Source of the DNA: a virus
IMG/VR virus record: IMGVR_UViG_3300048839_001890
Span: 1-31,702 of that record
Length of the DNA stretch: 31,702 nt
Direction: 5' to 3' (one strand)
The notes under the pieces were generated by a model. The model did no database searches, was not told the DNA's origin, and saw nothing but the letters and a program-made list of their open reading frames with translations. Positions 4,454 to 30,721 of the stretch are shown piece by piece. Positions within the stretch are counted from its first letter, which is position 1. Each line of letters starts with the position of its first letter. The position numbers and the translations under genes were made by a program.

Positions 4454-4885
4454 TCAGGCGGTGAGCGGATCGCTGACCAGGTATTCGACGGTGACGATGA
4501 GCCTGGCGGTGAGGATCGGCGCCGCGCCCTCGATGGCGAGGGCGCCGGTCTCCGGAGCAGAGGGCGTCAGATTCTCGGCGAGCCCGCCGAGCAAGGGATC
4601 GATCCTGAGCGCCGCGCCGATCGCGCCGAGTAGCGCATCGAGCGCGGCCTCGCCGCCGCCGGCCGGATCGCGTGCCATGTAGGCCTCGATCTCGACGCGA
4701 TGGCTGTAGAACTCAGTGCGCGGGTTGAGCGTCACGTCCGGTTCGCCGGGATCGCCGTCGCGTAGGATCACGAGGCCGGCGTCTGGCACACGCTCGGGCA
4801 GCACCTCGTTACGGCGGACGGTGGCGTGTAGCCCCAAGAGCCGTTCGTACAGCGCGGTGAGGATGGTTTCGCGAGGAGTGGGCAT
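4454..4885 (-). CDS. Tail terminator / tail completion protein (gpU-like position)
   Basis: 143 residues starting MPTPRETILTALYERLLGL. Size, the early helix, the later YSHRVEIEAYM strand and the C-terminal beta segment (ILTARLIVTVEYLV) fit the small tail terminator proteins that cap the tail tube in lambda-like phages. It sits immediately upstream of the tail tube gene (24 nt gap). Its usual neighbour, the DUF6441 gene, has been pushed about 3.8 kb away by cargo island A. The function is inferred mainly from position and size; sequence similarity to gpU itself could not be tested. Confidence 0.65.
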   Translation of the reverse strand: MPTPRETILTALYERLLGLHATVRRNEVLPERVPDAGLVILRDGDPGEPDVTLNPRTEFYSHRVEIEAYMARDPAGGGEAALDALLGAIGAALRIDPLLGGLAENLTPSAPETGALAIEGAAPILTARLIVTVEYLVSDPLTA

Positions 4886-4916
4886 AGTGCTTTGGCGGAT
4901 CCTTCACTACGCGACT

Positions 4917-4934
4917 TTCGGAGTTTGCTCCGAA
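4917..4934. repeat. Inverted repeat upstream of the tail terminator gene
   Basis: Perfect 7-bp palindrome TTCGGAG-TTTG-CTCCGAA in the 198-nt gap (4886-5083) between the tail terminator start and the end of the island A ATPase gene. No T-run follows it on either strand, so it is not a convincing intrinsic terminator. It could mark the island edge or modulate read-through into the tail genes. The rest of this gap holds no supportable gene. Confidence 0.4.
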
Positions 4935-5083
4935 TCGGACTTCAAAAATGTCCAGTTCCGGGCATGGAGGCAGCCCCAACACTGCGCGCGTCCATCTGCG
5001 ACGTGCAACCCGATTGCAGACATCTGCCGCCGATGCGCTCCGGGCATCTGCCGGCGCTGTGGTCGCGTTACGGCGCAGCCGAT

Positions 5084-7123
5084 CTATGTTTTCGGCACTA
5101 CCCGATCTATTAGCCGCTTGTCGAAAACGAGCAGCTGGTGGTCGACATCAGCCACGAAGTTCTTGACTCTGGTAAGATCCTCACTCGTGGCAATCAAGAT
5201 CTGAGCCCCTGACTTGGCGATTCGCGCCGCCTCTGCAATGAGGCCTGCCACGCTCGTTTCCGCCGCCTCCTGCTGGCGCGGCTCGTCGAAGATGACTAGC
5301 CCCGGATGATTAGTCGTTCGTGCCCGCGACAGGTCGAGGAGGCCGAGTTGGTAGGCCCACTTAAGGCGGATGCTATCACTCGCTGAGAGCTCAAAGCCGA
5401 TTTCGAAACCCTCCTTCTCCGGACGGTACGTGTCAACGGATACAGTCAGATCCTCAGGCGGAAAGGTGATGAAGCCGTAATGCGCGAGTTGCGTCCTGAT
5501 AGATGTCTCAAGTGCGCGGATTTTGCCGAGGTCGGCGGCGCTAAGTCGCTCCGTCGGCAATCCGGCTTTCTGAGCGAGCAGGTCGGCCCACGCTGCGGCT
5601 TGGTCGGCCAGCCTGTTCACTTGTTCCGCGAAGCGCGCCTCGGCGTTTCGCAACTGGTCGAGGCGTTGCTCGATCCGCACACGCTCTTCGATGAACGAGG
5701 CCGACGCGGCGTGCGATGGCGCAACGAGATCCGCCTTCAGCGCACGCAGGCGTGATGATAGCCTTCGCGCCACCTCACCAGTCGCGACAAGCTCGAGGTC
5801 GAGTTCGCTGATAATTGCAACGGAGCGATCGGCCAACTGCTTGAACGCCCTCCGCTGTGAGTCAATATAGTCGATGTTATCCTCAACAGACATGACTTTA
5901 TCCAGTGTCCCCTGAGGAAGTAGGGCGTCATCAATTGGCTGCTCGCAAGTTGGGCAATGATCATGACTAAGCTCTCGCACCAGCATTGAGCCAAACTTCC
6001 GTAGCTTTAGGGCATCCTTATTTTTCTGAAGATCTTCATCAAGCTGTACAATACGCTGTTTGGTCGACGCTTGTTGCACAATCTCGGTTTGTCGCGCTCT
6101 AAAAATTTCGGCACGCTCGGAATTCAGCGTATGTATTTCTGAACTCAACCCTTCGACTTCGGCAGCCACGCCTTCGGCGACGCTCCCGACCTCTGGAATC
6201 GTTTGCTCCTCTAGTTTGGTCATTTGGGCCGCGAGATCGGCGAGCCGCTTTTCAAGCCTACGCCACTCACCAGCCTCGAAAACCTCAACGAAAACGTCGC
6301 GTACCTCACTTGCGAAGGCGGTAGGAGTGCCGGGAAGGCGAGCCACCCGCAGTCCAGACGCGGTGGCCGACGCGCCAATGGCATCGACGGTCTTGGCCCA
6401 CTCCACGCGCGCAGCGTTGATCCGCAACTCGATGTCCTGCCGCCGGAGTTCCATCTCGTGAGTGTCGAGTTTCAAGAGAAATTCGACAGAGCGGCGATGT
6501 ACTTCACGGATGCGAAATTGCGTGGGAATAGCGCCCGGAATCGTTGACCAGCCCACCTTCTGCTCGACAAAGAATAGCGGGAATACTGTCTCGATGTACA
6601 ACGGGCACTCTCCACCATCGTATCGCTTCACGACTGGCAGCTGCCAGCCCATGAATTCCGCCAGCCTGCGGTGGAATCCGGCCTCGCGCTGTGCGGCGCC
6701 CGGATCAATTACAAAATAGTCTCGACGCTGGTATTCTCCCGCTCCATTAGTCAGCTCGGGGCCTTCAACCACGCTCACGAGCCTCTTATCGGTCATTGCG
6801 ACCACGTTCCGACGGACTGTCATCCGCTCGCCGGCGGCGTTCTCGATTTCGACGGCGACGAAAGATTCAAGGATATCGTAACGCTCCGCTGTGCTGGGAT
6901 CTTCGACGTAGTCGCGCATGGCGTAGGACAGGGGGATCTCCCTTTTGGGGCTGAGCATTTGCTCAAGGCCGAGCGCGTACAAGAAGGCGTGGAGTACTGT
7001 CGATTTACCCGATGTATTAGGTGCATGAAGCACAGTCAGACCGCCGTTCAAGGTAACGTCGGTGCCGTACAGTCCGTCGGTAGTTTGCGCACGAAGGCGG
7101 ATGTGCTTGATCTGTAGCGACAT
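5084..7123 (-). CDS. SMC-like ABC ATPase of an ABC-3C/Lamassu-type defence system
   Basis: 679 residues with the split ABC ATPase plan of SMC/Rad50-like proteins. The N-terminal half-domain has a P-loop (APNTSGKST, residues 34-42). Predicted coiled-coil arms span roughly 285-375 and 425-515, with a zinc-hook CPTC at 390-393 between them. The C-terminal half has a signature-like SASDSIRLKWAY (~580-591) and Walker B with DEP (LVIFDEPRQQ, 609-618). The DEPRQ continuation is, from memory, typical of ATPases in ABC three-component systems. Such ATPases sense invading DNA or its replication and release an effector. The start overlaps the middle-component stop (ATGA). It is last in the operon, and its genes are less G+C-rich than the flanking phage genes. 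A RecN- or Rad50-type repair role is less likely given the partners. Confidence 0.8.
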   Translation of the reverse strand: MSLQIKHIRLRAQTTDGLYGTDVTLNGGLTVLHAPNTSGKSTVLHAFLYALGLEQMLSPKREIPLSYAMRDYVEDPSTAERYDILESFVAVEIENAAGERMTVRRNVVAMTDKRLVSVVEGPELTNGAGEYQRRDYFVIDPGAAQREAGFHRRLAEFMGWQLPVVKRYDGGECPLYIETVFPLFFVEQKVGWSTIPGAIPTQFRIREVHRRSVEFLLKLDTHEMELRRQDIELRINAARVEWAKTVDAIGASATASGLRVARLPGTPTAFASEVRDVFVEVFEAGEWRRLEKRLADLAAQMTKLEEQTIPEVGSVAEGVAAEVEGLSSEIHTLNSERAEIFRARQTEIVQQASTKQRIVQLDEDLQKNKDALKLRKFGSMLVRELSHDHCPTCEQPIDDALLPQGTLDKVMSVEDNIDYIDSQRRAFKQLADRSVAIISELDLELVATGEVARRLSSRLRALKADLVAPSHAASASFIEERVRIEQRLDQLRNAEARFAEQVNRLADQAAAWADLLAQKAGLPTERLSAADLGKIRALETSIRTQLAHYGFITFPPEDLTVSVDTYRPEKEGFEIGFELSASDSIRLKWAYQLGLLDLSRARTTNHPGLVIFDEPRQQEAAETSVAGLIAEAARIAKSGAQILIATSEDLTRVKNFVADVDHQLLVFDKRLIDRVVPKT

Positions 7124-7602
7124 CAGAAAGACTCCATCTTTATGATGCTGTCGACCATCTTTTCGGTCGCAATCCTTCCGATCTCATCCAAAAATGTCGT
7201 CTCTTCGACTAGCACGCCAGCCTCTCGGACCTTGTCGGCAATGGCCTTCCCCGCTTCTGTCAGCGTTAGCGCCTTGCCATTCTGCATCTCGACGAGACCA
7301 TTCGCTTTACCAAACGCAATGGCTCGATTCACCCACGGCTCGATCCGGACAGAGAGCTGGGCAGGCGACCGGTTTCGCGCCAGGACTTGGCGCGTCTCCG
7401 CCCTAGATCGTGCGCCGCGGCTGAGATGTGCGAGAAAATGTACCTTCTGTAGGCTGCACCGCATGCCCTTCGATGAGGCGAGGACCAGCAGCAGCAGCGC
7501 TTGTCCCCAGCCAACGCGAAGGTCTCCCGGGATTGGTTCAGGCCGTGCGGTCACGGTGAAGTCACCGGTTAAGGCGGACTTGAGGCGGGCAATCTCCTTC
7601 AT
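7123..7602 (-). CDS. Middle component (winged-helix) of the ABC-3C/Lamassu-type system
   Basis: About 159 residues starting MKEIARLKSALTG. The conserved-looking block PGDLRVGWGQALLLLVLASS is followed by a Lys/Arg-rich helical part. A C-terminal winged-helix-like segment follows (AFGKANGLVEMQ, then KALTLTEAGKAIADKV). Small wHTH proteins of this size lie between nuclease and ATPase in ABC three-component systems (equivalent to LmuC of Lamassu) and bridge the two. ATG at 7602 is 1 nt after the nuclease stop; an in-frame TTG at 7611 would add three residues. A GAGG lies about 11 nt upstream of the ATG. Role inferred from context and fold guess; specific subfamily not determined. Confidence 0.7.
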   Translation of the reverse strand: MKEIARLKSALTGDFTVTARPEPIPGDLRVGWGQALLLLVLASSKGMRCSLQKVHFLAHLSRGARSRAETRQVLARNRSPAQLSVRIEPWVNRAIAFGKANGLVEMQNGKALTLTEAGKAIADKVREAGVLVEETTFLDEIGRIATEKMVDSIIKMESF

Positions 7603-7603
7603 G

Positions 7604-8509
7604 TCATTCAAGCCTCAGCGGACAGCGCATCAGCCACTCGCTCACCGCACCAAAGGCAATCGTCTCGGCGAATCCCGGATCGAGATTTGGAACTGCGGCG
7701 AGGATGCTCGACTTTAGCCCCTCGATCTCGGCATCAAGCCGGTCGATGTTGCCGGCGCCTCGCGATCCAAGGCCAAGTCGCCGCAACCTCTGTGCGGCAA
7801 GGCGGGTCACATCTTCGAAAGCGTCTGGAGCGCTCTCTCGCAAAGCCTCTACAATATTCTGGGACTCGAGCGATACACGGAGCGCCACTTCGACTGCATC
7901 ATCAAGCGCGCTAAGGTCGGCGAAGCGTATCTGAAGCTTTCCACGGAGATTCGTGGTCAGATTGTGGTCCCCACTGGCGACCGCAACAACTTCCTCATGG
8001 CTCGTTGGTGACACGACCGGCCGAATTCGCTTGCGCAACTGCGCGCGGCGCTTCCAAGAATCATCGTCGAAGTCCGATCGGTCGTGCACCAATACCTGAA
8101 ACTCGCGATCGACGTGTGGGAGGTCCTTGGTGACTACCTCCGCCGTCTTCTTCATCGCGTGCTCGACCACCTCCCTGCTATCGTGCAGCGGAACGGCAAG
8201 TATCCAGCGCTTGATCTTGTATCCGTCGAACATCCGCGCCGCCCCCTTCGACGGGTCGCAGAACTTTCCGACGTCGGTCGTCATCTTCGTTTTCTGCTTC
8301 GTGGCTCGGGCGGCGACGTCGACAGGCTCCTCTACCGCATAGCACTGGTAGACAACACGCCGATCAAGGCAGAAGTAGTCTAGCCCGCAGTCGCCCTTGT
8401 GCTTCGCCGGCACCTTTTGGACGTTCTCAGCGCCATACCGATCTTGGAGGAGTCGAAGGACGTGCAACTCCCACTCGTGCCCATCCCATGCCTCGTAATC
8501 GGCCACCAC
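7604..8509 (-). CDS. PD-(D/E)xK-like nuclease effector of the ABC-3C/Lamassu-type system
   Basis: 301 residues, first gene of the island A operon. Residues 9-60 look like a restriction-endonuclease-like core: helix with acidic residues (EWELHVLRLL, E12/E14), then GDCGLDYF (D40, D44), then the strand RVVYQCYAVE with Q55. The third motif reads Q-C-Y instead of the usual E/Q-x-K, so the catalytic lysine may be displaced (K71, K73 and K75 lie in the following helix) or absent. Residues ~150-301 are an unrecognised helical region that could be the partner-binding C-terminal domain of such effectors. Start is GTG at 8509 (or 8506) because an in-frame TAG lies 9 nt upstream. No good ribosome site precedes it; translation may be coupled to a short leader ORF. 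Confidence 0.72.
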   Translation of the reverse strand: MVADYEAWDGHEWELHVLRLLQDRYGAENVQKVPAKHKGDCGLDYFCLDRRVVYQCYAVEEPVDVAARATKQKTKMTTDVGKFCDPSKGAARMFDGYKIKRWILAVPLHDSREVVEHAMKKTAEVVTKDLPHVDREFQVLVHDRSDFDDDSWKRRAQLRKRIRPVVSPTSHEEVVAVASGDHNLTTNLRGKLQIRFADLSALDDAVEVALRVSLESQNIVEALRESAPDAFEDVTRLAAQRLRRLGLGSRGAGNIDRLDAEIEGLKSSILAAVPNLDPGFAETIAFGAVSEWLMRCPLRLE

Positions 8510-8515
8510 CCGCGA

Positions 8516-8578
8516 CTAGCTCTGAATGACGTCGGTCTGGTGATCCGGAACGAGGCTAAGGCCTGCGACCTTATGCAA
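8516..8578 (-). CDS. Possible 20-codon leader ORF before the nuclease gene
   Basis: A TTG codon at 8578 follows GAGGAG with a 6-nt spacer, a better ribosome site than any before the nuclease GTG. The frame reads 20 codons (LHKVAGLSLVPDHQTDVIQS) and stops with TAG at 8516-8518, only 6 nt before the nuclease start. This arrangement would permit translational coupling. Whether it is translated is unknown. Confidence 0.35.
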   Translation of the reverse strand: MHKVAGLSLVPDHQTDVIQS

Positions 8579-8589
8579 AATCTTCTCCT

Positions 8590-8627
8590 CTGCTCGGCAA
8601 TCTACCGAGCAGTCACGCCTTACGCAA
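8590..8627 (-). promoter_or_regulatory. Candidate promoter and overlapping palindromic operator for island A
   Basis: On the minus strand TTGCGT (8622-8627) is separated by exactly 17 nt from TAGATT (8599-8604), a fair -35/-10 pair. The -10 lies in the 7-nt centre of a perfect 8-bp inverted repeat, CTGCTCGG (8605-8612) and CCGAGCAG (8590-8597). A repressor bound there would block the -10 box. Transcription would run into the leader ORF and the three-gene operon. Confidence 0.5.
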
Positions 8628-8688
8628 ACGAGAATGGGCGAATGTTTTGTACCGTGACGGCATGAGGGAAAGGAGTGCAAATCGCCGT

Positions 8689-9321
8689 TTATCGTATGCG
8701 CCCCTCCACCCACTTCCCCACGACGAGCCTCGGCAAGGCCTCATGCGCCCGCACAGCATCCCGGACAAGGTCCAGCCTTTTCGGCAACTTGACCTGCGGC
8801 ACCAGCAGGAAGATCGGCACCGTGGCGGCACCTCGCCCAGTCTTCGAGCGCGAGCGCACCGCCCGGCCTCTGGTGTTCAGCCGGGACTCGGCGACGAGCA
8901 GGCTGGGGCCTGAGCGGCGGTAGACGAAGCGCAGGCGCAGACCGTTGCGGCGTTCCCATTCGCCGGGGGTGATCCGGCCACCGCGCAGCGACCGGCCCGC
9001 GGCTGGCGTCGGGATCGCCAGCCAGAAGCCGTTCCTCGAGCGGATCAGTGGGCCGGTGTCGTGGGCACCAACGATCACTGGCGCCTTCGACCAGACGACG
9101 ACGGCGGCGTTCAGGCTTTGGCCGGACTTGGGATAGACCTGACTTTGGATCGTCTTCACCAACCGCGTGCCGAGTCCGGCACCGACGATCTGCGCCCGCC
9201 AGGCAGCTTTGAGCCCTTCGCCCGCCTGCCGTACGGCGATGCTCGCCGCCTTCTCGCCGGCTCTGACCTCCTCGGCCATTAGCTGCCCGAGGCTGCCGAC
9301 AATGCTCGCGGTGAGCTTCAT
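8689..9321 (-). CDS. DUF6441-like phage protein (minor tail/neck, gpZ position)
   Basis: 210 residues starting MKLTASIVGSLGQLMAEEVR. The run through AAWRAQIVGAGLGTRLVKTI, then LIRSRNGFWLAIPTPAAG, and a basic middle matches the DUF6441 family as I remember it. That family lies between head-tail joining and tail terminator genes in alphaproteobacterial lambda-like phages, the place of gpZ in lambda. The ATG overlaps the stop of the head-tail joining gene (ATGA), so the two are translationally coupled. Island A begins just after its stop. Molecular role in tail-neck assembly is inferred from position only. Confidence 0.72.
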   Translation of the reverse strand: MKLTASIVGSLGQLMAEEVRAGEKAASIAVRQAGEGLKAAWRAQIVGAGLGTRLVKTIQSQVYPKSGQSLNAAVVVWSKAPVIVGAHDTGPLIRSRNGFWLAIPTPAAGRSLRGGRITPGEWERRNGLRLRFVYRRSGPSLLVAESRLNTRGRAVRSRSKTGRGAATVPIFLLVPQVKLPKRLDLVRDAVRAHEALPRLVVGKWVEGRIR

Positions 9322-9632
9322 GCCGGCCGCAGCTCCGCTGTCCAGATGAGGCGCTCGCTGTCGCGCACGGGCTCGCCCTGGACCCGGTAGAGGTCGCCGT
9401 CGATCTCGATGGTATCGCCGGCGGCTACGACAGGCACCTCGACCGTGCGCAGCTCGACTACGGTGGTGTCGGCGAGCAGCCGCGTCTCGCCGAAGCCGCC
9501 GATGCGGTCGGGCTGGCGCAGCACGATCCGCACCGTCACCGAAGGTCCCGTGCCACCTGCCCGCCAGGCGGCGTCCTGTGCGAGGTGGGGGTCCAGAAAA
9601 AGCGCATCCATAGCTGCGGCGAACGCATTCAT
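9318..9632 (-). CDS. Head-tail joining protein (gpFII-like)
   Basis: 104 residues starting MNAFAAAMDALFLDPHLAQD. The C-terminal part (GDTIEIDGDLYRVQGEPVRD, then ERLIWTAELRPA) is the small beta-barrel pattern of FII-type joining proteins, which connect the filled head to the tail. An upstream in-frame ATG at 9692 would add 20 residues (including RLPHDIGLSTTQRHS) that do not resemble the family; 9632 is therefore preferred. It lies next to the DUF6441 gene but is separated from the capsid gene by the opposite-strand island B, which has displaced the usual capsid-to-FII junction. Confidence 0.75.
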   Translation of the reverse strand: MNAFAAAMDALFLDPHLAQDAAWRAGGTGPSVTVRIVLRQPDRIGGFGETRLLADTTVVELRTVEVPVVAAGDTIEIDGDLYRVQGEPVRDSERLIWTAELRPA

Positions 9633-9697
9633 TGTGCTATGCCTTTGCGTGGTCGATAAGCCAATGTCGTGCGGCAAGCGCCCAGGATCCATGAAAT

Positions 9698-10576
9698 ATG
9701 GTCACGACTCCATCGCCGGTGATTAAGACCTATCCCAAGCGCGGGCCACTACAGCAATTCCGATTGGCTACAGTTGCAGCTTTTCGATGTTTTCGCTGTG
9801 GCACAACGAAAAAATCGAAGTTGATCACTGTATACGCAGATGATTGGTCAAAGCGACTTTGTAATGGCTGCTATGGTCAACTTCTGTCTATCTACGAAAT
9901 AAAAGAGGGGGCAGATCGTGATGAAAGCAAGGCAGAAAATTTAGCGAACCTGCTTTATTCAATGGTCAAGATAGACGATCAACGGGGAGCAGAACGACTG
10001 CTATTGGCGTCGGAAGCTCGGGCGAAATATTTGTCGCCAGAGACATTGCGTTTTCTCGCTACTGCCGAATTCCTCGCCGATAAGCTCGGCACTGATCAAC
10101 AACTAGAGTGGTCTCCCGCCATAATAGGCTTGTGCAAGGCAGTTGAACTGGAAATAATTAACAATATTGTCCGACCGCTTGCGAACAGGACAGGCGGCAT
10201 GGATCTGTCGATCGACTTGGACGACAAGGACATAGCCCGCGTCGCGACATTCTGCGCAAATCAAAATCGAAAACCACCAGAGCTTGGCGCCATTGCCCAT
10301 TTCCTGCAAACCGTTATCCACAGCCGAAATAGGCGGAACACAAGCCAGCTGTTGCAGTCATTCATGCAGCTAGCATCTGATTGGACAGGTTCACATTGGA
10401 TCCTGGATCAGAACGGCCTACATCGATCGCTCACAAGAATAACAATCGACTTCAGGAACAAGGCTGCTCACATCGATGAGTTAGCGGAATTAGATTACCG
10501 AAATTGTAGACAAATCGTCATGGGCCCTGAGGGAGTTCTTTGGAGACTTGCCACGTCCGTGGAGAAACATCACTAG
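9698..10576 (+). CDS. Zinc-ribbon protein with HEPN-like motif (candidate abortive-infection factor)
   Basis: 292 residues on the strand opposite to all surrounding late genes, and clearly richer in A+T. Residues 31-58 form a CxxC-x20-CxxC zinc ribbon (C31, C34, C55, C58). The rest is mostly helical. A segment WSPAIIGLCKAVELEI (138-153) and a C-terminal DFRNKAAH (251-258) carry the RN-x3-H pattern of HEPN ribonucleases. HEPN proteins in prophages often act as RNA-cutting toxins in phage exclusion. This is motif-level evidence only; a non-catalytic HEPN or a DNA-binding regulator remains possible. AGGA lies about 10 nt before the ATG. Its location between capsid and FII genes marks it as a separately acquired moron. 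Confidence 0.6.
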   Translation: MVTTPSPVIKTYPKRGPLQQFRLATVAAFRCFRCGTTKKSKLITVYADDWSKRLCNGCYGQLLSIYEIKEGADRDESKAENLANLLYSMVKIDDQRGAERLLLASEARAKYLSPETLRFLATAEFLADKLGTDQQLEWSPAIIGLCKAVELEIINNIVRPLANRTGGMDLSIDLDDKDIARVATFCANQNRKPPELGAIAHFLQTVIHSRNRRNTSQLLQSFMQLASDWTGSHWILDQNGLHRSLTRITIDFRNKAAHIDELAELDYRNCRQIVMGPEGVLWRLATSVEKHH

Positions 10577-19406: not shown

Positions 19407-19715
19407 CTACATGATCGCTCCTGTGTCGCCTGAGACGCGCCTGAGGCTTTGCTTGGCCGCCGCCAAGCGGGGAGTTGCCTTCGCATGACGCGGCTCCGTG
19501 CGCCGAGCGCGGATTGCCTCGAACACGCGCCGCAGCGCGTAGCTCCGGGCGGTCGACACCGCCGTGAAAATTACTCCAATCGCGAGAGCGTCCGCGACGC
19601 GCCCCGGCAAACCGAACCACGGGAAGACGATCAGCTGTGTAAGCACGGCGACGCCATAGCCGACGGCGACGTTCGTCACCGCCTCGACCAGCGACATGAG
19701 CCTCGACTGCTTCAC
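19407..19715 (-). CDS. Small two-helix membrane protein (DUF7220-like)
   Basis: 102 residues starting MKQSRLMSLVEAVTNVAVGY from a GTG codon. It has two hydrophobic helices (roughly residues 12-33 and 41-57) followed by SYALRRVFEAIRARR and a basic tail. I recall this pattern in phage proteins of alphaproteobacteria annotated as DUF7220. The GTGA start overlaps the stop of the methyltransferase gene, so it is translated from that mRNA. Function unknown; both termini probably cytoplasmic. Confidence 0.65.
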   Translation of the reverse strand: MKQSRLMSLVEAVTNVAVGYGVAVLTQLIVFPWFGLPGRVADALAIGVIFTAVSTARSYALRRVFEAIRARRTEPRHAKATPRLAAAKQSLRRVSGDTGAIM

Positions 19716-21013
19716 GTGGCGACCCGCTCCGCCTCCAGCTCACCAAACGTCCGCCCATCGCCTTCCAGCGTGGCAGCCCCGCCCGTCCAATCCTGCCAGC
19801 GCGTGACGATCACATCGACATAACGCGGATCGAGCTCGACCAGCCGGGCCTGCCGGCCGGTCTTCTCCGCCGCGATCAGGGTCGAGCCCGATCCGCCGAA
19901 CAGATCCAGCACGATGTCGCGCCGCTTGCTGGAGTTCCTGAGCGCCCGCTCGATCAAGGCCACCGGCTTCATCGTCGGGTGCAGGTCGTTCTTGACCGGC
20001 TTGTCGAAGTGCCAGACATCGCCCTGGTCCCTGGCGCCGCACCAGTAGTGCTCGGCACCCTGCGGCCAGCCGTAGAGGATCGGCTCGTACTGCCGCTGGT
20101 AGTCGGCACGGCCGAGCGTGAAGGTGTTCTTGGCCCAGATGATGAAGGTCGACCACTTGCCGCCGGCGGCGGTGAACGCCGCCTGGAGGGTGTGCAGCTC
20201 CGAGCTGCTCATGGCGATGTAGACCGCACCCTTGGTGACGGTGAGGATGTTGGTGCAGGCGTCCTGCAGAAAGGTCCCGAAGCTGTCACCGAGCGCGTCG
20301 TTGAGGATTCGCCGGTCTTTGCCGCTCTTCCCGGACGCTACCGCTCCGCTACTCGAGCGCGGCTTGTTCTTGGCCGAGTTGCCATAGTCGACGTTGTAAG
20401 GCGGATCGGTCCAGGCCATGTCGGCGAGGGAGCGGGCGAGCACGCGCTCGACGTCCGTCAGGATGGTGGCATCGCCACAGAGCACCCGGTGATTGCCCAG
20501 CAGCCAGAGATCGCCGGGCCTGGAGATCGGCTCGACCGGCGGCTCCGGCACCTCGTCCTCGGCACCCTCGCTCTCGCCCCCGGCAGGTGCGAGCAGCGCC
20601 TCCAGCTCGCCGGCGTCGAAGCCGAGCAGATCGAGATCGAAGGTCTCGTCCCGAAGCCAGGCCAGCTCCTCGGCGAGCAGGGTCGCATCCCACCCCGCAC
20701 GCAGGGCCAGCTGGTTGTCGGCGATCACATAGGCGCGCTTCTGCGCCGGCGTCAGATGGCCGAGCCGGACCACCGGCACCTCGGCCAGGCCCAGCTCACG
20801 GGCCGCCATCAGCCGACCATGCCCGGCGAGGATGCCGTCCGCCTCGTCGACCAGGATCGGGTTGGTGAAGCCGAACTCGACCATCGAGGCTGCGATCTGC
20901 GCCACCTGGTCGGCGCTGTGTGTCCGGGGGTTGCGCTCGTAGGGCCGCAGCCGGTCGATCGGCCAGAGCTCCAGCCGCTCGGCCAGGGCGGTGAGGGCGG
21001 TCGTCTCTGGCAT
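19712..21013 (-). CDS. ParB-like domain / beta-class DNA methyltransferase fusion
   Basis: 433 residues. The N-terminal ~100 residues form a ParB/Srx-like domain (LRPYERNPRTHSADQVAQIA; GHGRLMAA at 64-71). A methyltransferase follows, with the catalytic DPPY at 203-206 preceding the SAM-binding DLFGGSGST (370-378), plus HPTMKP (345-350). DPPY-before-FxGxG is the order of beta-class amino-methyltransferases making N6-methyladenine or N4-methylcytosine. Such orphan fusions are common in prophages and may protect phage DNA from restriction. No cognate endonuclease is nearby. ATG at 21013 is chosen since the upstream open frame runs through a repeat-rich control region. Confidence 0.9.
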   Translation of the reverse strand: MPETTALTALAERLELWPIDRLRPYERNPRTHSADQVAQIAASMVEFGFTNPILVDEADGILAGHGRLMAARELGLAEVPVVRLGHLTPAQKRAYVIADNQLALRAGWDATLLAEELAWLRDETFDLDLLGFDAGELEALLAPAGGESEGAEDEVPEPPVEPISRPGDLWLLGNHRVLCGDATILTDVERVLARSLADMAWTDPPYNVDYGNSAKNKPRSSSGAVASGKSGKDRRILNDALGDSFGTFLQDACTNILTVTKGAVYIAMSSSELHTLQAAFTAAGGKWSTFIIWAKNTFTLGRADYQRQYEPILYGWPQGAEHYWCGARDQGDVWHFDKPVKNDLHPTMKPVALIERALRNSSKRRDIVLDLFGGSGSTLIAAEKTGRQARLVELDPRYVDVIVTRWQDWTGGAATLEGDGRTFGELEAERVAT

Positions 21014-21016
21014 GAT

Positions 21017-21157
21017 TGCGAACCTGCGAACTGCGCACCTGAGTGCGAACCTGGACCGTGGTGCGCACCCGAGGTGCGCAGGACCAGAAACGGCAAAAGC
21101 CGCCAAACTGGCGGCTCTCGGGGCGGCGGGTGCGAACCTGGTGTGCGAACTGCGAAC
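21017..21157. repeat. TGCGAAC repeat cluster upstream of the methyltransferase gene
   Basis: Six exact TGCGAAC copies (starting at 21017, 21025, 21044, 21131, 21144 and 21151) plus TGCGCA variants. Two variants form a perfect 8-bp inverted repeat TGCGCACC-CGA-GGTGCGCA at 21062-21080. The copies fall in two groups around a terminator-like hairpin. This looks like an operator array controlling the methyltransferase gene, which starts at 21013, or a protein-binding site such as a ParB-like target. Confidence 0.7.
21095..21116 (-). terminator. Intrinsic terminator, minus strand
   Basis: Read on the minus strand: AGCCGCC, loop AGTTT, GGCGGCT, then TTT continuing from the last stem base (T-run at 21095-21098). 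A 7-bp GC-rich stem with a short T-run. It would stop transcripts coming from the DUF6456-like gene before the methyltransferase promoter region. Confidence 0.6.
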
Positions 21158-21289
21158 CCGGATTCCCGGGCTGTCTGTAGCGAAGTCCCGGGCCACCGCC
21201 CCCCGCATACACTTCGGCACAGGAAGGACCCGTTGATTTTCAATGGCTTGGCCGGATGCCGCTCAATGCCGGCACCCCTGAACACACGA

Positions 21290-22715: not shown

Positions 22716-23288
22716 CTAGTGGGTCGCCGATGATGCAACATCAACCTTTGGACGAAAAAAATGCGTCCTTAAAACCGTCTGAATATCCTCCAATCCATCG
22801 GATGACAATGAAGAAACAAGTTGTGCACGGTCCTCGACAAATTCATTAATCTTCGTGCTATACATTTGATTTAAAAATGCCACAGCACCAAACCGAAATC
22901 GGTCATCTATTTTCGGAAAATAGAAAAGCCGACTGATTTTTCGTTTCCCCATGTTGGCAAGCCAACTTAAGCATTTGTCTCGCCCATATCTCTGATGAAA
23001 GTCGCATACCCAAATCTCAAACTGAAGAAGCGGACATATCAAAATGTCATCGTTATATGGTCGGATATTTGATTGGTCTGCGTCACACTCATGCGTTAAG
23101 ACGTACACCCGCCCTTCCACAGTACGAAATTTGCGTTCATCCGGCAAGTAAAGCGGATATCGCACTTGATCATAGATCAACCCTCTGCCCAAAGCGAAAT
23201 GATTTTCGGTCACATAGAAGTCTGTTTCTGAAACAGTTAAATGTCTATTAATGAAATTAAAATACTCATCAATAGAGTATGTCGACAT
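22716..23288 (-). CDS. Unknown protein, third gene of the TIGR04255 operon (190 aa)
   Basis: Starts MSTYSIDEYFNFINRHLTVS. It is A+T-rich like its two upstream partners and unlike the flanking phage genes. Visible features: a beta-rich centre with YVLTHECDADQSN (residues ~62-74) and DDILICPLLQFEIWV (79-93). A helical C-terminus ends in FFRPKVDVASSATH. The THECDxxxSN-then-ICPL layout is reminiscent of small barrel proteins but I cannot name a family. It starts 12 nt after the 83-aa gene, so all three are probably one transcript. Possible effector or immunity factor; this is speculation. Confidence 0.65.
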   Translation of the reverse strand: MSTYSIDEYFNFINRHLTVSETDFYVTENHFALGRGLIYDQVRYPLYLPDERKFRTVEGRVYVLTHECDADQSNIRPYNDDILICPLLQFEIWVCDFHQRYGRDKCLSWLANMGKRKISRLFYFPKIDDRFRFGAVAFLNQMYSTKINEFVEDRAQLVSSLSSDGLEDIQTVLRTHFFRPKVDVASSATH

Positions 23289-23299
23289 TATATGTAACT

Positions 23300-23551
23300 C
23301 TAATCAATAACGTCAACTGATGCAAGCAACAGATCTACGAATCGGCGGCTATCCGGTTCTGAAACGAACCCAGTTGGCTCATATGGTCTTTCTGTTATAT
23401 TGCCTCCTGATCGGGCACTAACGTACTCCAAACTACCAGTTGGCACCTCCCAGCCAATGGGCTGGCTATCAGAAACCCGAGGCACAATCGTAGAGATCTG
23501 AATATTGATCGATGATGCGCTCTCCTCCAAGCAGAAATTCATCCTAGTCAT
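23300..23551 (-). CDS. Unknown protein, second gene of the TIGR04255 operon (83 aa)
   Basis: Starts MTRMNFCLEESASSINIQIS and ends RRFVDLLLASVDVID. The ATG overlaps the stop of the TIGR04255 gene by 8 nt, and the frame ends 12 nt before the third gene. The frame is open further upstream, but only as an overlap with the preceding gene. The centre (PIGWEVPTGS; SARSGGNITERPYE) is polar; the C-terminus forms one short helix. No family recognised. Tight spacing to both neighbours supports a functional three-gene unit. Confidence 0.6.
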   Translation of the reverse strand: MTRMNFCLEESASSINIQISTIVPRVSDSQPIGWEVPTGSLEYVSARSGGNITERPYEPTGFVSEPDSRRFVDLLLASVDVID

Positions 23552-24299
23552 AGCCTTCCCATTCCTCTGTAATGGCATCCAGGACATCGCCGGGGATAAG
23601 GGAAAAGAATTCGCGCTTCTCAAATCCGTGCGCTGATTCCATCCAATCCAAAATATCCTCCAAACTCTTAGACGCGAAGCCGGCCGGTGTTCCCACATCA
23701 ATGTCCACAAGCGCTCTGTAAGGAACATTCGGCGCGCCAGTAACAAAATCCGGAGAAGACATTTTTATATTTGCGATATGATTATCTCCAGAGGTCCTTA
23801 TAAAGTGTAAATTATATGGAGGCGCGAGTCTTGTGCCGTTACTCTGACTAATCTTATATGAAAGATCAGCCACACTTGCAATCTTATGATCTTCTTCATT
23901 CAGAAGATTAATATAGCGGAATCCTAAACGAATTGCCCTAAAATCGCTTATTTCCTTTACAAGATAACTCAGTTCATGGCCGATTTCGCGTCGGAAGCTG
24001 TCCCATCCGGGATATGGGGCAAGGAGATGATAGGAAAATACATTGGAGCCGATCTTAGCAACACGGTTCTCCTTACGCTGGCGTAACTCGATTGTCGCTT
24101 GAAATCGCAGGCTAGGATCAGCTTCCCGCATCGGGTCAGGTATGTTCGCAATGGGAAGTCGCGACTGACTTGCCCCCTTCCATGTGGGACTCATTACCAA
24201 GCGCCCTACGACCACCTCCGCGACGTCCGAACGCTCAAATCGAACCTCGCACAGGGCCTCTATGATGGCGTCCTTTTTCAATCGCTTAGGGATACGCAT
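23544..24299 (-). CDS. TIGR04255-family protein (first gene of island C)
   Basis: 251 residues from ATG 24299 (MRIPKRLKKDAIIEALCEVR); an upstream in-frame ATG at 24338 would add 13 residues without similarity. The N-terminal LKKDAIIEALCEVRFE, the Q-rich strand RFQATIELRQRKENRVAKIG and the later AIRLGFRYINLL fit TIGR04255, a sporadically distributed family of unknown function. The middle DIDVGTPAGF and the C-terminal AHGFEKREFFSLI also fit. A+T content is well above the phage backbone. The gene heads a tight operon with two unknown proteins, between the replication block and the DUF6456-like gene. A defence or toxin-antitoxin role is inferred only from location and distribution. Confidence 0.75.
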   Translation of the reverse strand: MRIPKRLKKDAIIEALCEVRFERSDVAEVVVGRLVMSPTWKGASQSRLPIANIPDPMREADPSLRFQATIELRQRKENRVAKIGSNVFSYHLLAPYPGWDSFRREIGHELSYLVKEISDFRAIRLGFRYINLLNEEDHKIASVADLSYKISQSNGTRLAPPYNLHFIRTSGDNHIANIKMSSPDFVTGAPNVPYRALVDIDVGTPAGFASKSLEDILDWMESAHGFEKREFFSLIPGDVLDAITEEWEGYD

Positions 24300-24347
24300 G
24301 ACGCCTATACCGGACCTGTCACGATAGCTTACCGACAAGCTACATCA

Positions 24348-29530: not shown

Positions 29531-30721
29531 TTAAGTCCTGCCTTTCATCGGCACCACCTCGCCGCTGCCCTCGACAGGCGACACGATGGCCCCTACGCGC
29601 TCTGTAGCGGCCCGCAGCGGGTCGTCGAACAGGTGGGCATATCGCGCGGTCGTCTGCGCCTGGGTGTGCCCCAGCAGCGCGCCGATGATGGGCAGGGACA
29701 GACCAGCGCTGGCGAGAAACGAGGCGTAGGAATGCCGCAGATCGTGCACGCGCACGCCCTCCAGCTTCGCCGCCCGACAGATCGCGGCCCAGTCGTCCTT
29801 GATCTCTCGACGATGCCCGCCGGTCCGGCTTGGAAAAACGTGTTCGCCCGTCTGGGCGATGCCGGCCAACAACTGCCGAGCCGGGGCGGACAGCGGCACG
29901 CGGTGCGCCTTCTTCTGCTTGGTGTGCGCGCTCGGCTTCACCCAGACGCCCGCCTCGAGGTCCAGATCGGCCCAACGCATTGCCAGCACCTCGCCACGCC
30001 GCGCACCGGTGAGCAGCAGCAGACGGATGATATTGGCCGATTGCTGGTCGCGGTGCTCGGCCAAGGCAGCGGTCAGCCGGGCCACCTCGTCACCCGCCAG
30101 GAAGCGCTCGCGCTTGTTCTCGGGGTTGCGCTCGATCCCCTTGGCCGGGTTGTCCGTCCGCCAGCCTCGACGGATGGCGATCGCGAACATCTTGGAGCAC
30201 AGCGCGACCACGCGGTTTGCCCGGATCGGCGCCGGCCGATCCCGTTTCTTGCCGGTCGTGATCTCCCGGTGCAGCCGGTCGATATCGGTGAACGTCACGT
30301 CCGCCACCTTGAGCCGGCCGAGCCGGGGCAGAACTTCCCTCTGCAACATTGCGCGGTCGTCGGCCTGGGAGCGCGCCCGCTTTTTCGGCAGGTGGTGCTC
30401 TGTGTATTCTTGGCACAGGTGCGCCACGGTCGACGCCGCACGCTCGGCCTGTTCCTCGGCCAGCGGATCGCGCCCGCTGTCGATCTCGCGCCGTAGCCGC
30501 TTGGCCTCGTCACGCGCGGCCTTCACGCTCCAAGCTGGGTGCTGGCCAATGGTGATCCGCCGCTCTCGGCCGCCCGTCCGATAGTTGAGCACGAACGCCC
30601 GCGCGCCCGCTGCCGTCACCCGAACGCCGAAGCCGGGCAACTCGGCGTCGTAGGTGATACGATTGCTCGATGCCGGCGCCCGCAGGGTCTTGATGATGCT
30701 GTCGGTGAGCCGCTGTCGCAT
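29531..30721 (-). CDS. Tyrosine site-specific integrase
   Basis: 396 residues. An N-terminal arm-binding/DUF4102-like domain is seen (ITYDAELPGFGVRVTAAGAR; RRITIGQHPAWSVKAARDEA). A core-binding SAM-like domain follows (~95-190), then the catalytic domain with R241 (LLTGARRGEVLAMRW), a candidate lysine near 271, H326-x-x-R329 (HDLRHSYASFLASAG), H352 (LLGHTQAQTT) and nucleophile Y361 (TARYAHLF). All catalytic positions are intact, so it should be active. It lies 161 nt from the tRNA-Leu fragment and reads away from it, as is usual for tRNA-integrating prophages. Confidence 0.95.
   Translation of the reverse strand: MRQRLTDSIIKTLRAPASSNRITYDAELPGFGVRVTAAGARAFVLNYRTGGRERRITIGQHPAWSVKAARDEAKRLRREIDSGRDPLAEEQAERAASTVAHLCQEYTEHHLPKKRARSQADDRAMLQREVLPRLGRLKVADVTFTDIDRLHREITTGKKRDRPAPIRANRVVALCSKMFAIAIRRGWRTDNPAKGIERNPENKRERFLAGDEVARLTAALAEHRDQQSANIIRLLLLTGARRGEVLAMRWADLDLEAGVWVKPSAHTKQKKAHRVPLSAPARQLLAGIAQTGEHVFPSRTGGHRREIKDDWAAICRAAKLEGVRVHDLRHSYASFLASAGLSLPIIGALLGHTQAQTTARYAHLFDDPLRAATERVGAIVSPVEGSGEVVPMKGRT

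Follow-up and report, generated by a model that had tools for sequence, protein, structure and literature searches.

A Lamassu-type operon as very probable cargo in the tail gene cluster of a putatively temperate siphovirus

Introduction

Lamassu is a known kind of anti-phage defence system, and excerpts from two papers describe it as one in which LmuB senses DNA ends or hairpins and the nuclease LmuA becomes active, so that the cell is killed or halted ahead of phage production (PMC10586767, PMC12904381). For other systems, the corresponding excerpts describe self-triggering as being avoided by a late counter-gene (Tab, PMC10884400; Tai, PMC11364771) or by an antisense inhibitor (Tha, PMC11087260). 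Here we analyse the entire IMG/VR record IMGVR_UViG_3300048839_001890 (31,702 bases, without host flanks; hereafter the window), in which positions 4886-8688 are the exact gap between the open reading frame (ORF) of a tail terminator and that of a DUF6441 protein. An original prediction, made from the DNA letters, placed an ABC three-component (ABC-3C) or Lamassu-type operon in this gap. In our view, the gap very probably holds a Lamassu (ABC-3C) anti-phage system with all of its components, which a temperate siphovirus, most likely of Alphaproteobacteria, carries as cargo in a recombination-prone slot between the DUF6441 and tail-terminator genes. What is new here is the slot, its link with one DUF6441 type, and the active-site variants of the clade.

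Results and discussion

Identity of the three genes

The operon occupies 5084-8509 on the minus strand as ORFs of 301, 162 and 679 aa, namely lmuA (7604-8509), lmuC (7123-7611) and lmuB (5084-7123), with an overlap of 8 bases between lmuA and lmuC and of 1 base between lmuC and lmuB; these coordinates agree with the original prediction of three overlapping minus-strand genes separating DUF6441 from the tail terminator. PADLOC profiles name all three, LmuA by PDLC03852 (E = 1.7e-26), LmuC by PDLC03871 (E = 1.5e-17) and LmuB by PDLC03863 (E = 6.7e-103, residues 1-668), and the predicted Lamassu/ABC-3C call, a complete LmuA-LmuC-LmuB operon, is thus confirmed at the level of sequence profiles. 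In Pfam, LmuB matches AAA_23 (E = 5.1e-7) and no family above the cut-off was found for LmuA or LmuC, while the NCBIfam matches of LmuB are sub-threshold SMC/Rad50 ones only. Among the PHROGs viral families, phrog_25112 matches LmuB (E = 3.6e-91) and phrog_25540 matches LmuA (E = 3.8e-27), both without function annotation, indicating that further viral or prophage copies are already present in PHROGs.

LmuB reads as an SMC/Rad50-like ATPase with the Walker A motif APNTSGKST, a CPTC zinc hook and the intact Walker B motif VIFDEPRQQ, and Walker A, the CPxC hook and Walker B are kept across the 19 aligned LmuB sequences. The SMC-like ATPase with zinc hook and DEPRQ Walker B noticed earlier is therefore present, with the LmuB profile behind it. 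LmuB is also weakly similar to SMC/Rad50 models and to phrog_77 (SbcC-like), as might be expected if the genes were a phage DNA repair or recombination module of the RecN/SbcCD/Rad50 kind lying by chance among tail genes. We regard this as very improbable, since the LmuB profile is far stronger (E = 6.7e-103 versus 3.7e-12 or weaker) and LmuB keeps its adjacent partners LmuA and LmuC in 19/19 complete loci, rather than standing in a repair clade without them.

Predicted structures point the same way. The AlphaFold2 model of LmuC (predicted local distance difference test, pLDDT, 83.0; predicted template modelling score, pTM, 0.77) was compared with the PDB by Foldseek, and rows of the Foldseek list were re-compared with VIA-align. 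Ranks 1, 2 and 4 of that comparison are chains of 164-171 residues from Lamassu complexes, taken as LmuC by their length (9uxh_D, Z 10.0, root-mean-square deviation (rmsd) 4.7, 139 aligned of 170 residues; 9ny5_C, Z 9.5; 9hqu_D, Z 9.1), and its other neighbours are winged-helix regulators, in keeping with a small winged-helix middle component. For LmuA (pLDDT 83.9, pTM 0.56) the Foldseek list is headed by the solved LmuA 9nxx, with 9hr5 and 9uxl at ranks 4 and 6. Its N-terminal part (approximately residues 9-155) aligns in VIA-align with Avs4 (8dgf_B, Z 10.1, rmsd 3.0, 129 aligned), AF1548 (9.2), FokI (8.6), CdiA-CT toxins (8.8 and 8.6), Cdn1 and Card1; no match stands far above the others, and a PD-(D/E)XK nuclease fold is moderately supported by the model. 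The C-terminal part (approximately 160-301) aligns with LmuA of a type II Lamassu tetramer (9uxi_A, Z 9.1, rmsd 4.0, 129 aligned). Z values of about 8-10 with ties are modest evidence from predicted models, yet they agree with PADLOC and with the structure of the operon.

The operon as cargo of the tail cluster

The window carries a minus-strand siphovirus head-tail cluster of terminase, head maturation protease, decoration, major head protein, Hc1, DUF6441, tail terminator, tube, chaperone and tape measure genes. Within it, the operon is flanked upstream by the DUF6441 gene (8689-9321, minus strand; PF20039, E = 5.3e-47) and downstream by the tail-terminator gene (4454-4885, minus strand; phrog_4204, E = 2.4e-26), from which lmuB is separated by a spacer at 4886-5083. 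The G+C content of the operon is 57-60%, compared with about 67% on both sides and a maximum of 73% in other parts of the structural cluster, and so the lower G+C noticed originally is real. A minus-strand tyrosine integrase at 29531-30721 (PF00589, E = 1.8e-27, with the arm-binding domain PF13356) makes it most likely that the phage is temperate, as had been proposed.

Comparison with seven close relatives (L004, L005, L006, L128, L136, L154 and L164) by blastn shows that DNA similarity ends at 4819-4826, in the 5' end of the tail-terminator gene, and restarts at 8696-8732, in the 3' end of DUF6441, with one extra match in L136 at 4684-4879. These break points mark the borders of a replaced piece, giving a cargo slot of approximately 4827-8701. 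In L005 and L164 the slot is empty. Elsewhere it holds a cation efflux gene (L004), an EVE-domain protein and SNase (L006), an FRG-domain protein (L128), a pyridine-nucleotide oxidoreductase with MerF that form a mercury-resistance set by family (L136, 2547-5623), or a HamA-family protein with a 1172-aa DEAD helicase resembling Hachiman (L154, 1319-5618). No mutual blastn or tblastx match at 1e-5 was found among the six cargos, that of the window included. The helicase of L154 is itself matched by 169 plasmid records. Beside its cargo, L136 repeats part of the 5' end of the tail-terminator gene, to which its very long branch in the terminator tree is due; the duplicated stretch is possibly a trace of cargo entry.

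Because slot contents vary among the closest relatives, the displaced gene order and cargo nature originally suggested hold, and sequence comparison supports the view that the operon is cargo, not tail machinery. Three same-strand genes lying exactly between two tail genes could also be a fixed part of the tail operon of this lineage. Of the explanations considered here, we give this one the least weight, close to none: close relatives are empty or otherwise loaded, with the empty sites of L005 and L164 refuting it, and no LmuB match occurs in the other 74 loci found by DUF6441 similarity in which the slot was measured.

Related Lamassu operons

Scanned by pattern with one LmuB query, 84,980 species genomes yielded 20 loci (two from the same strain), all 20 from taxa that we take to be alphaproteobacterial. 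Eighteen of these genome loci and one phage locus, L003, make up the 19 complete loci, with gene starts chosen by script; the order A-C-B with overlapping genes is found in 19/19 loci that hold all three. Only a partial LmuB, close to the contig end, is present in L100 and L102, which were left out of the alignments together with LmuA of L085 (in-frame stop; its LmuC was kept), LmuC of L098 and L101 (uncertain starts) and LmuB of L103 (coordinates running past its own stop, in an unbroken gene). The flanks are varied and include AbiEii, integrases, resolvases and plasmid replication or transfer genes (25/92 families, among the matches listed; flank ORF set 129/145), and the genome loci of the clade showed no match to the tail or head genes of the window. 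A fixed A-C-B unit with varied flanks is the behaviour of a mobile defence operon. LmuB relatives also occur on 24 plasmid records, 23 of them less than 60% identical and a few outside Alphaproteobacteria.

Searches of viral sequences recovered few relatives. A tblastn search with LmuB of 50,697 GenBank phage records gave nothing at 1e-5, and two pattern scans of viral contigs, which miss relatives lacking the patterns, returned only the phage of the window itself (one more contig, 100%), L003 (47%) and the distant LmuB of L125 and L126 (27-28%). The additional contig, L002, is a copy of the window's phage with 100% identical proteins. L003 is a 42.7 kb contig of another siphovirus in which a Lamassu of the same clade (6600-10031; 7923-11354 in L122) lies between the tube and chaperone genes, with identities to the window of 41% for LmuA, 46% for LmuC and 47% for LmuB. 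Given this other junction, tail clusters seemingly took up the clade at least twice.

Occupancy of the slot across phages

The gap between DUF6441 and tail terminator was measurable in 74 viral contigs of a sample found by DUF6441 similarity alone (best 80 of 589). Gaps longer than 500 bp are present in 71/74 (71/75 with L003, which was found by LmuB and has 121 bp in this slot), the closed slots being L005, L064 and L068. When L003 is added to this set, gaps above 500 bp occur at the other junctions in 6/39 (major head protein to Hc1), 2/80 (Hc1 to DUF6441), 3/67 (terminator to tube) and 2/51 (tube to chaperone); terminator-tube distances are from the DUF6441-found sample only, as those of a sample anchored on the tail terminator are inflated by a tube profile lacking the N-terminal part. 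Counting the window's copy, 72 slots are occupied, and their contents form 50 cargo groups (joined where a blastn match spans over half, or a tblastx match over 30%, of the shorter member). Among the matches listed, slot ORF families include HipA, ParE, Gp49, a chromate transporter, TauE, cation efflux, QueC, OGG, NYN and DUF3800, and PADLOC models include type IV restriction and several phage-defence candidates; these tallies cover 148/209 ORF clusters (at least 100 aa), with many shadow ORFs.

Anchoring on the tail terminator gives a different picture. Among 44 close relatives, the two genes overlap by 4 bases in 29, are 94-95 bp apart in nine and are more than 300 bp apart in six; two of these six, L127 and L144, are the window's phage and L006 again. 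All 25 measured distant relatives have more than 300 bp (25/25; 10/79 unmeasurable). The first, DUF6441-anchored estimate of occupancy was therefore biased, given 6/44 among close relatives. In two GenBank phages with a related DUF6441 (L104 and L105) the genes also overlap by 4 bases. As an aside, the deposited annotation of L104 (5630-7009) names the tail terminator an 'acyl-CoA transferase' and the tail tube a 'site-specific tyrosine recombinase', while profiles match terminator and tube. In a class-wide draw of bacterial genomes, DUF6441 was found in 14/385, at 15 loci of about 3.6 kb: nine have the genes adjacent or nearly so, L120 has about 100 bp, L114, L115 and L118 have long gaps, and in L106 and L116 the tail terminator was not found. 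The original statement that these genes are normally adjacent thus holds for L104, L105 and most close tail-terminator relatives and fails for DUF6441 relatives, where long gaps are the rule.

The contrast between the samples indicates that an occupied slot goes with one DUF6441 type and does not characterise DUF6441 phages in general. Within the close set, the slot is occupied in 6/8 phages with DUF6441 identities of 85-89% (the window plus seven) and in 1/36 at 52-60%. Occupancy is strongly clustered on the DUF6441 tree, where it changes 6 times, and changes 7 times on the tail-terminator tree, whereas 200 shuffles gave no fewer than 36 changes on either tree (trees without the duplicate contigs L127, L144 and L151; change counts without one locus with a gap of 101-300 bp). 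For the window's group, one state change is needed on the DUF6441 tree and four on the tail-terminator tree; by path length, this group is nearest an occupied clade on the former and nearest closed phages on the latter, where branch support near the window is poor. Our reading of these trees is that a cargo-bearing upstream half may have been joined to a tail half from a closed clade, with the slot at the seam. In the open-licence literature, we found no paper naming DUF6441, and no title or abstract start describing the slot.

Two other cargos of this slot deserve mention. L010 and L072 carry about four co-directional ORFs (131-141, 443, 206 and 225 aa), the second with a nucleoside 2-deoxyribosyltransferase domain in L072, which possibly constitute an unrecognised defence operon. 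L011 and L013 carry a 753-aa antisense ORF, for which a Pfam search at 1e-4 gave no match with the L011 copy.

Active sites, expression and weight of the evidence

Evidence that weighs against a complete, lysogenically active Lamassu cargo comes from the similarity searches, the record itself, both active sites and the direction and expression of the operon. Foldseek E values are weak for both models (best 0.039 for LmuA and 0.065 for LmuC), and searching PDB sequences with profiles of LmuA, LmuC and LmuB yielded no convincing relative. The 31.7 kb IMG/VR contig may represent a fragment of the phage, and Alphaproteobacteria are the most likely host by relatives only.

In Mrr-like nucleases, a QxK motif stands where the LmuA clade reads Q-C-Y. 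The lysine position of the E...D...(E/Q)xK active site is thus Tyr57, in 19/19 aligned LmuA sequences, which also share invariant E14, D40, D44, Y54-Q55-C56-Y57 and K73/K75. It is plausible from the model that the invariant K73/K75, in the next helix (residues 65-84), could replace the catalytic lysine. LmuB departs from the described pattern as well: an excerpt of PMC10586767 describes LmuB as generally having the Walker-B glutamate replaced by glutamine, such that it may scarcely hydrolyse ATP. This replacement is absent from LmuB here, where D613-E614 is invariant in 19/19, and we treat it as a variant, not a defining, feature. Because the glutamate is invariant, this clade may have an ATP-hydrolysing sensor.

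The unusual QxY motif could alternatively mark a decaying, inactive passenger. L085, a metagenome-assembled genome, has an in-frame stop in LmuA (locus 6621-7520) with the LmuB frame open, reflecting either effector loss within the clade or an assembly error. Decay of the window's operon nevertheless seems improbable to us: its three frames are open with tight overlaps, as the originally proposed intact system would have them, and the clade-invariant residues are all present in its proteins.

Expression is less easily read, and the original suggestion that the system could be expressed during lysogeny is no more than a possibility. The operon is co-directional with the tail genes, so late lytic transcription is possible, whereas by codon usage the 50 cargo groups comprise 23 antisense, 6 co-directional and 21 undecided ones (23/29 decidable groups antisense), and the family-matched cargo genes of L004, L006, L128, L136 and L154 are all antisense to the tail genes. 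The operon strand showed no consensus promoter; upstream of lmuA, the highest promoter-like score is 7/12, matched by 58.5% of shuffles (on the copy L002). No terminator-like site was found on the operon strand of the spacer at 4886-5083, and no candidate counter-gene was seen in the Lamassu slot. The operon might hence be made mainly with the late tail transcript, or chiefly guard the prophage against plasmids and other mobile DNA, instead of serving as a lysogenic anti-phage shield; an excerpt of PMC10586767 reports activity of V. cholerae Lamassu against both plasmids and phages. We judge this unlikely, if less so than decay. The operon has its own 179-bp leader (8510-8688, minus strand), its relatives are also found on chromosomes and plasmids, apart from such phage tail genes, and published tests described in the same excerpt show several Lamassu systems acting on phages (PMC10586767).

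The leader contains a perfect 7+7 inverted repeat, TGCTCGG-N7-CCGAGCA, at 8591-8611, which may be an operator, a terminator stem or chance, and the weak promoter-like stretch scored above. In rhizobial relatives, a TTGAAT-16/17-TAARNT-like stretch precedes a G-rich start region. As a set, the 20 loci have a promoter score of 7.65 compared with 6.50 for shuffles (0/200 shuffle means as high), and only L003 and L097 stand out singly; this stretch was not used as evidence, because the loci are related and the window's phage is not above shuffles. A short ORF in the leader upstream of lmuA was dropped, as by eye it is not conserved as a protein in relatives.

Proposed mechanism and significance

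By analogy with described Lamassu systems, a dimer of the zinc-hook, SMC/Rad50-like LmuB would sense DNA ends or hairpins of an invading phage or plasmid, and LmuC would couple this sensor to the effector. The LmuA nuclease would then be activated and cut DNA, and the infected cell would be killed or arrested (abortive infection), such that in a lysogen both host and prophage would be shielded from competitors. Exchange at the DUF6441/tail-terminator boundary would refill the slot, yielding related phages with other defence genes, metal-resistance genes, or nothing.

A full three-gene system of abortive-infection type within the structural cluster of a temperate phage, in a slot that in close relatives holds other defence-type or metal-resistance genes, poses the question of how a phage with a nuclease system sensing DNA ends or hairpins beside its late genes escapes self-triggering during replication. 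If the slot is general, many candidate defence systems could be found in a poorly sampled phage group simply by reading DUF6441-to-tail-terminator gaps. More tentatively, and with somewhat more doubt than conviction, we suggest that a large temperate siphovirus family has in this junction a dedicated cargo port, refilled by recombination, tied to one DUF6441 type and forming an untapped store of defence and metal-resistance genes, and that its Lamassu is a mechanistic variant with the catalytic lysine moved to the following helix and an ATP-hydrolysing LmuB, perhaps resettable rather than one-shot.

Other features of the window

Three further regions were noted. An ORF of 292 aa with lower G+C, which runs in the opposite direction between the Hc1 and major head protein genes (9698-10576, plus strand; weak family match to phrog_26807, E = 5.5e-7), is a second likely cargo gene. 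A low-G+C patch (down to 44%) at 22716-24338 on the minus strand, holding a TIGR04255-family protein (23544-24338, E = 5.5e-23) and two more ORFs, is probably a third cargo patch. At 19712-21220 on the minus strand, a single protein combines a ParB-N-like part (PF02195, just below the cut-off) with an N6/N4 DNA methylase (PF01555).

Comparison with known systems

The solved Lamassu complexes, from V. cholerae type II (9uxl, 9uxh, 9uxi), from Salmonella (9hqu, 9hr5) and in 9nxx/9ny5, have the same three components in the same order, with a zinc-hook LmuB. The likeness extends to predicted structure, with the LmuC model closest to the small chains and the C-terminal part of LmuA closest to solved LmuA. 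The present LmuA is shorter, at 301 aa compared with 350-391 modelled residues (9nxx, 9hr5, 9uxi, 9uxl, 9uxh), and has tyrosine for the lysine of QxK, while LmuB has the Walker-B glutamate where the excerpt of PMC10586767 gives glutamine as general.

As a place for cargo, the slot resembles the hotspots of P2/P4, Vibrio K139-like and Bacillales phages as excerpted from PMC9122126, which are likewise 1-5 kb slots flanked by two conserved phage genes, rich in defence genes and with a rapid turnover of content. According to the same source, the P2/P4 hotspots adjoin cos and the Vibrio one lies between cI and integrase, whereas here the slot lies inside the tail cluster, in another phage group, with metal genes alongside defence genes (PMC9122126). 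Tab/anti-Tab (PMC10884400) and Tai (PMC11364771) are likewise described as defence genes that sit within a temperate phage's late operon or next to it; those systems, as portrayed in the excerpts, block tail assembly and have a late-expressed counter-gene (PMC10884400, PMC11364771), whereas the present locus carries a three-gene nuclease system.

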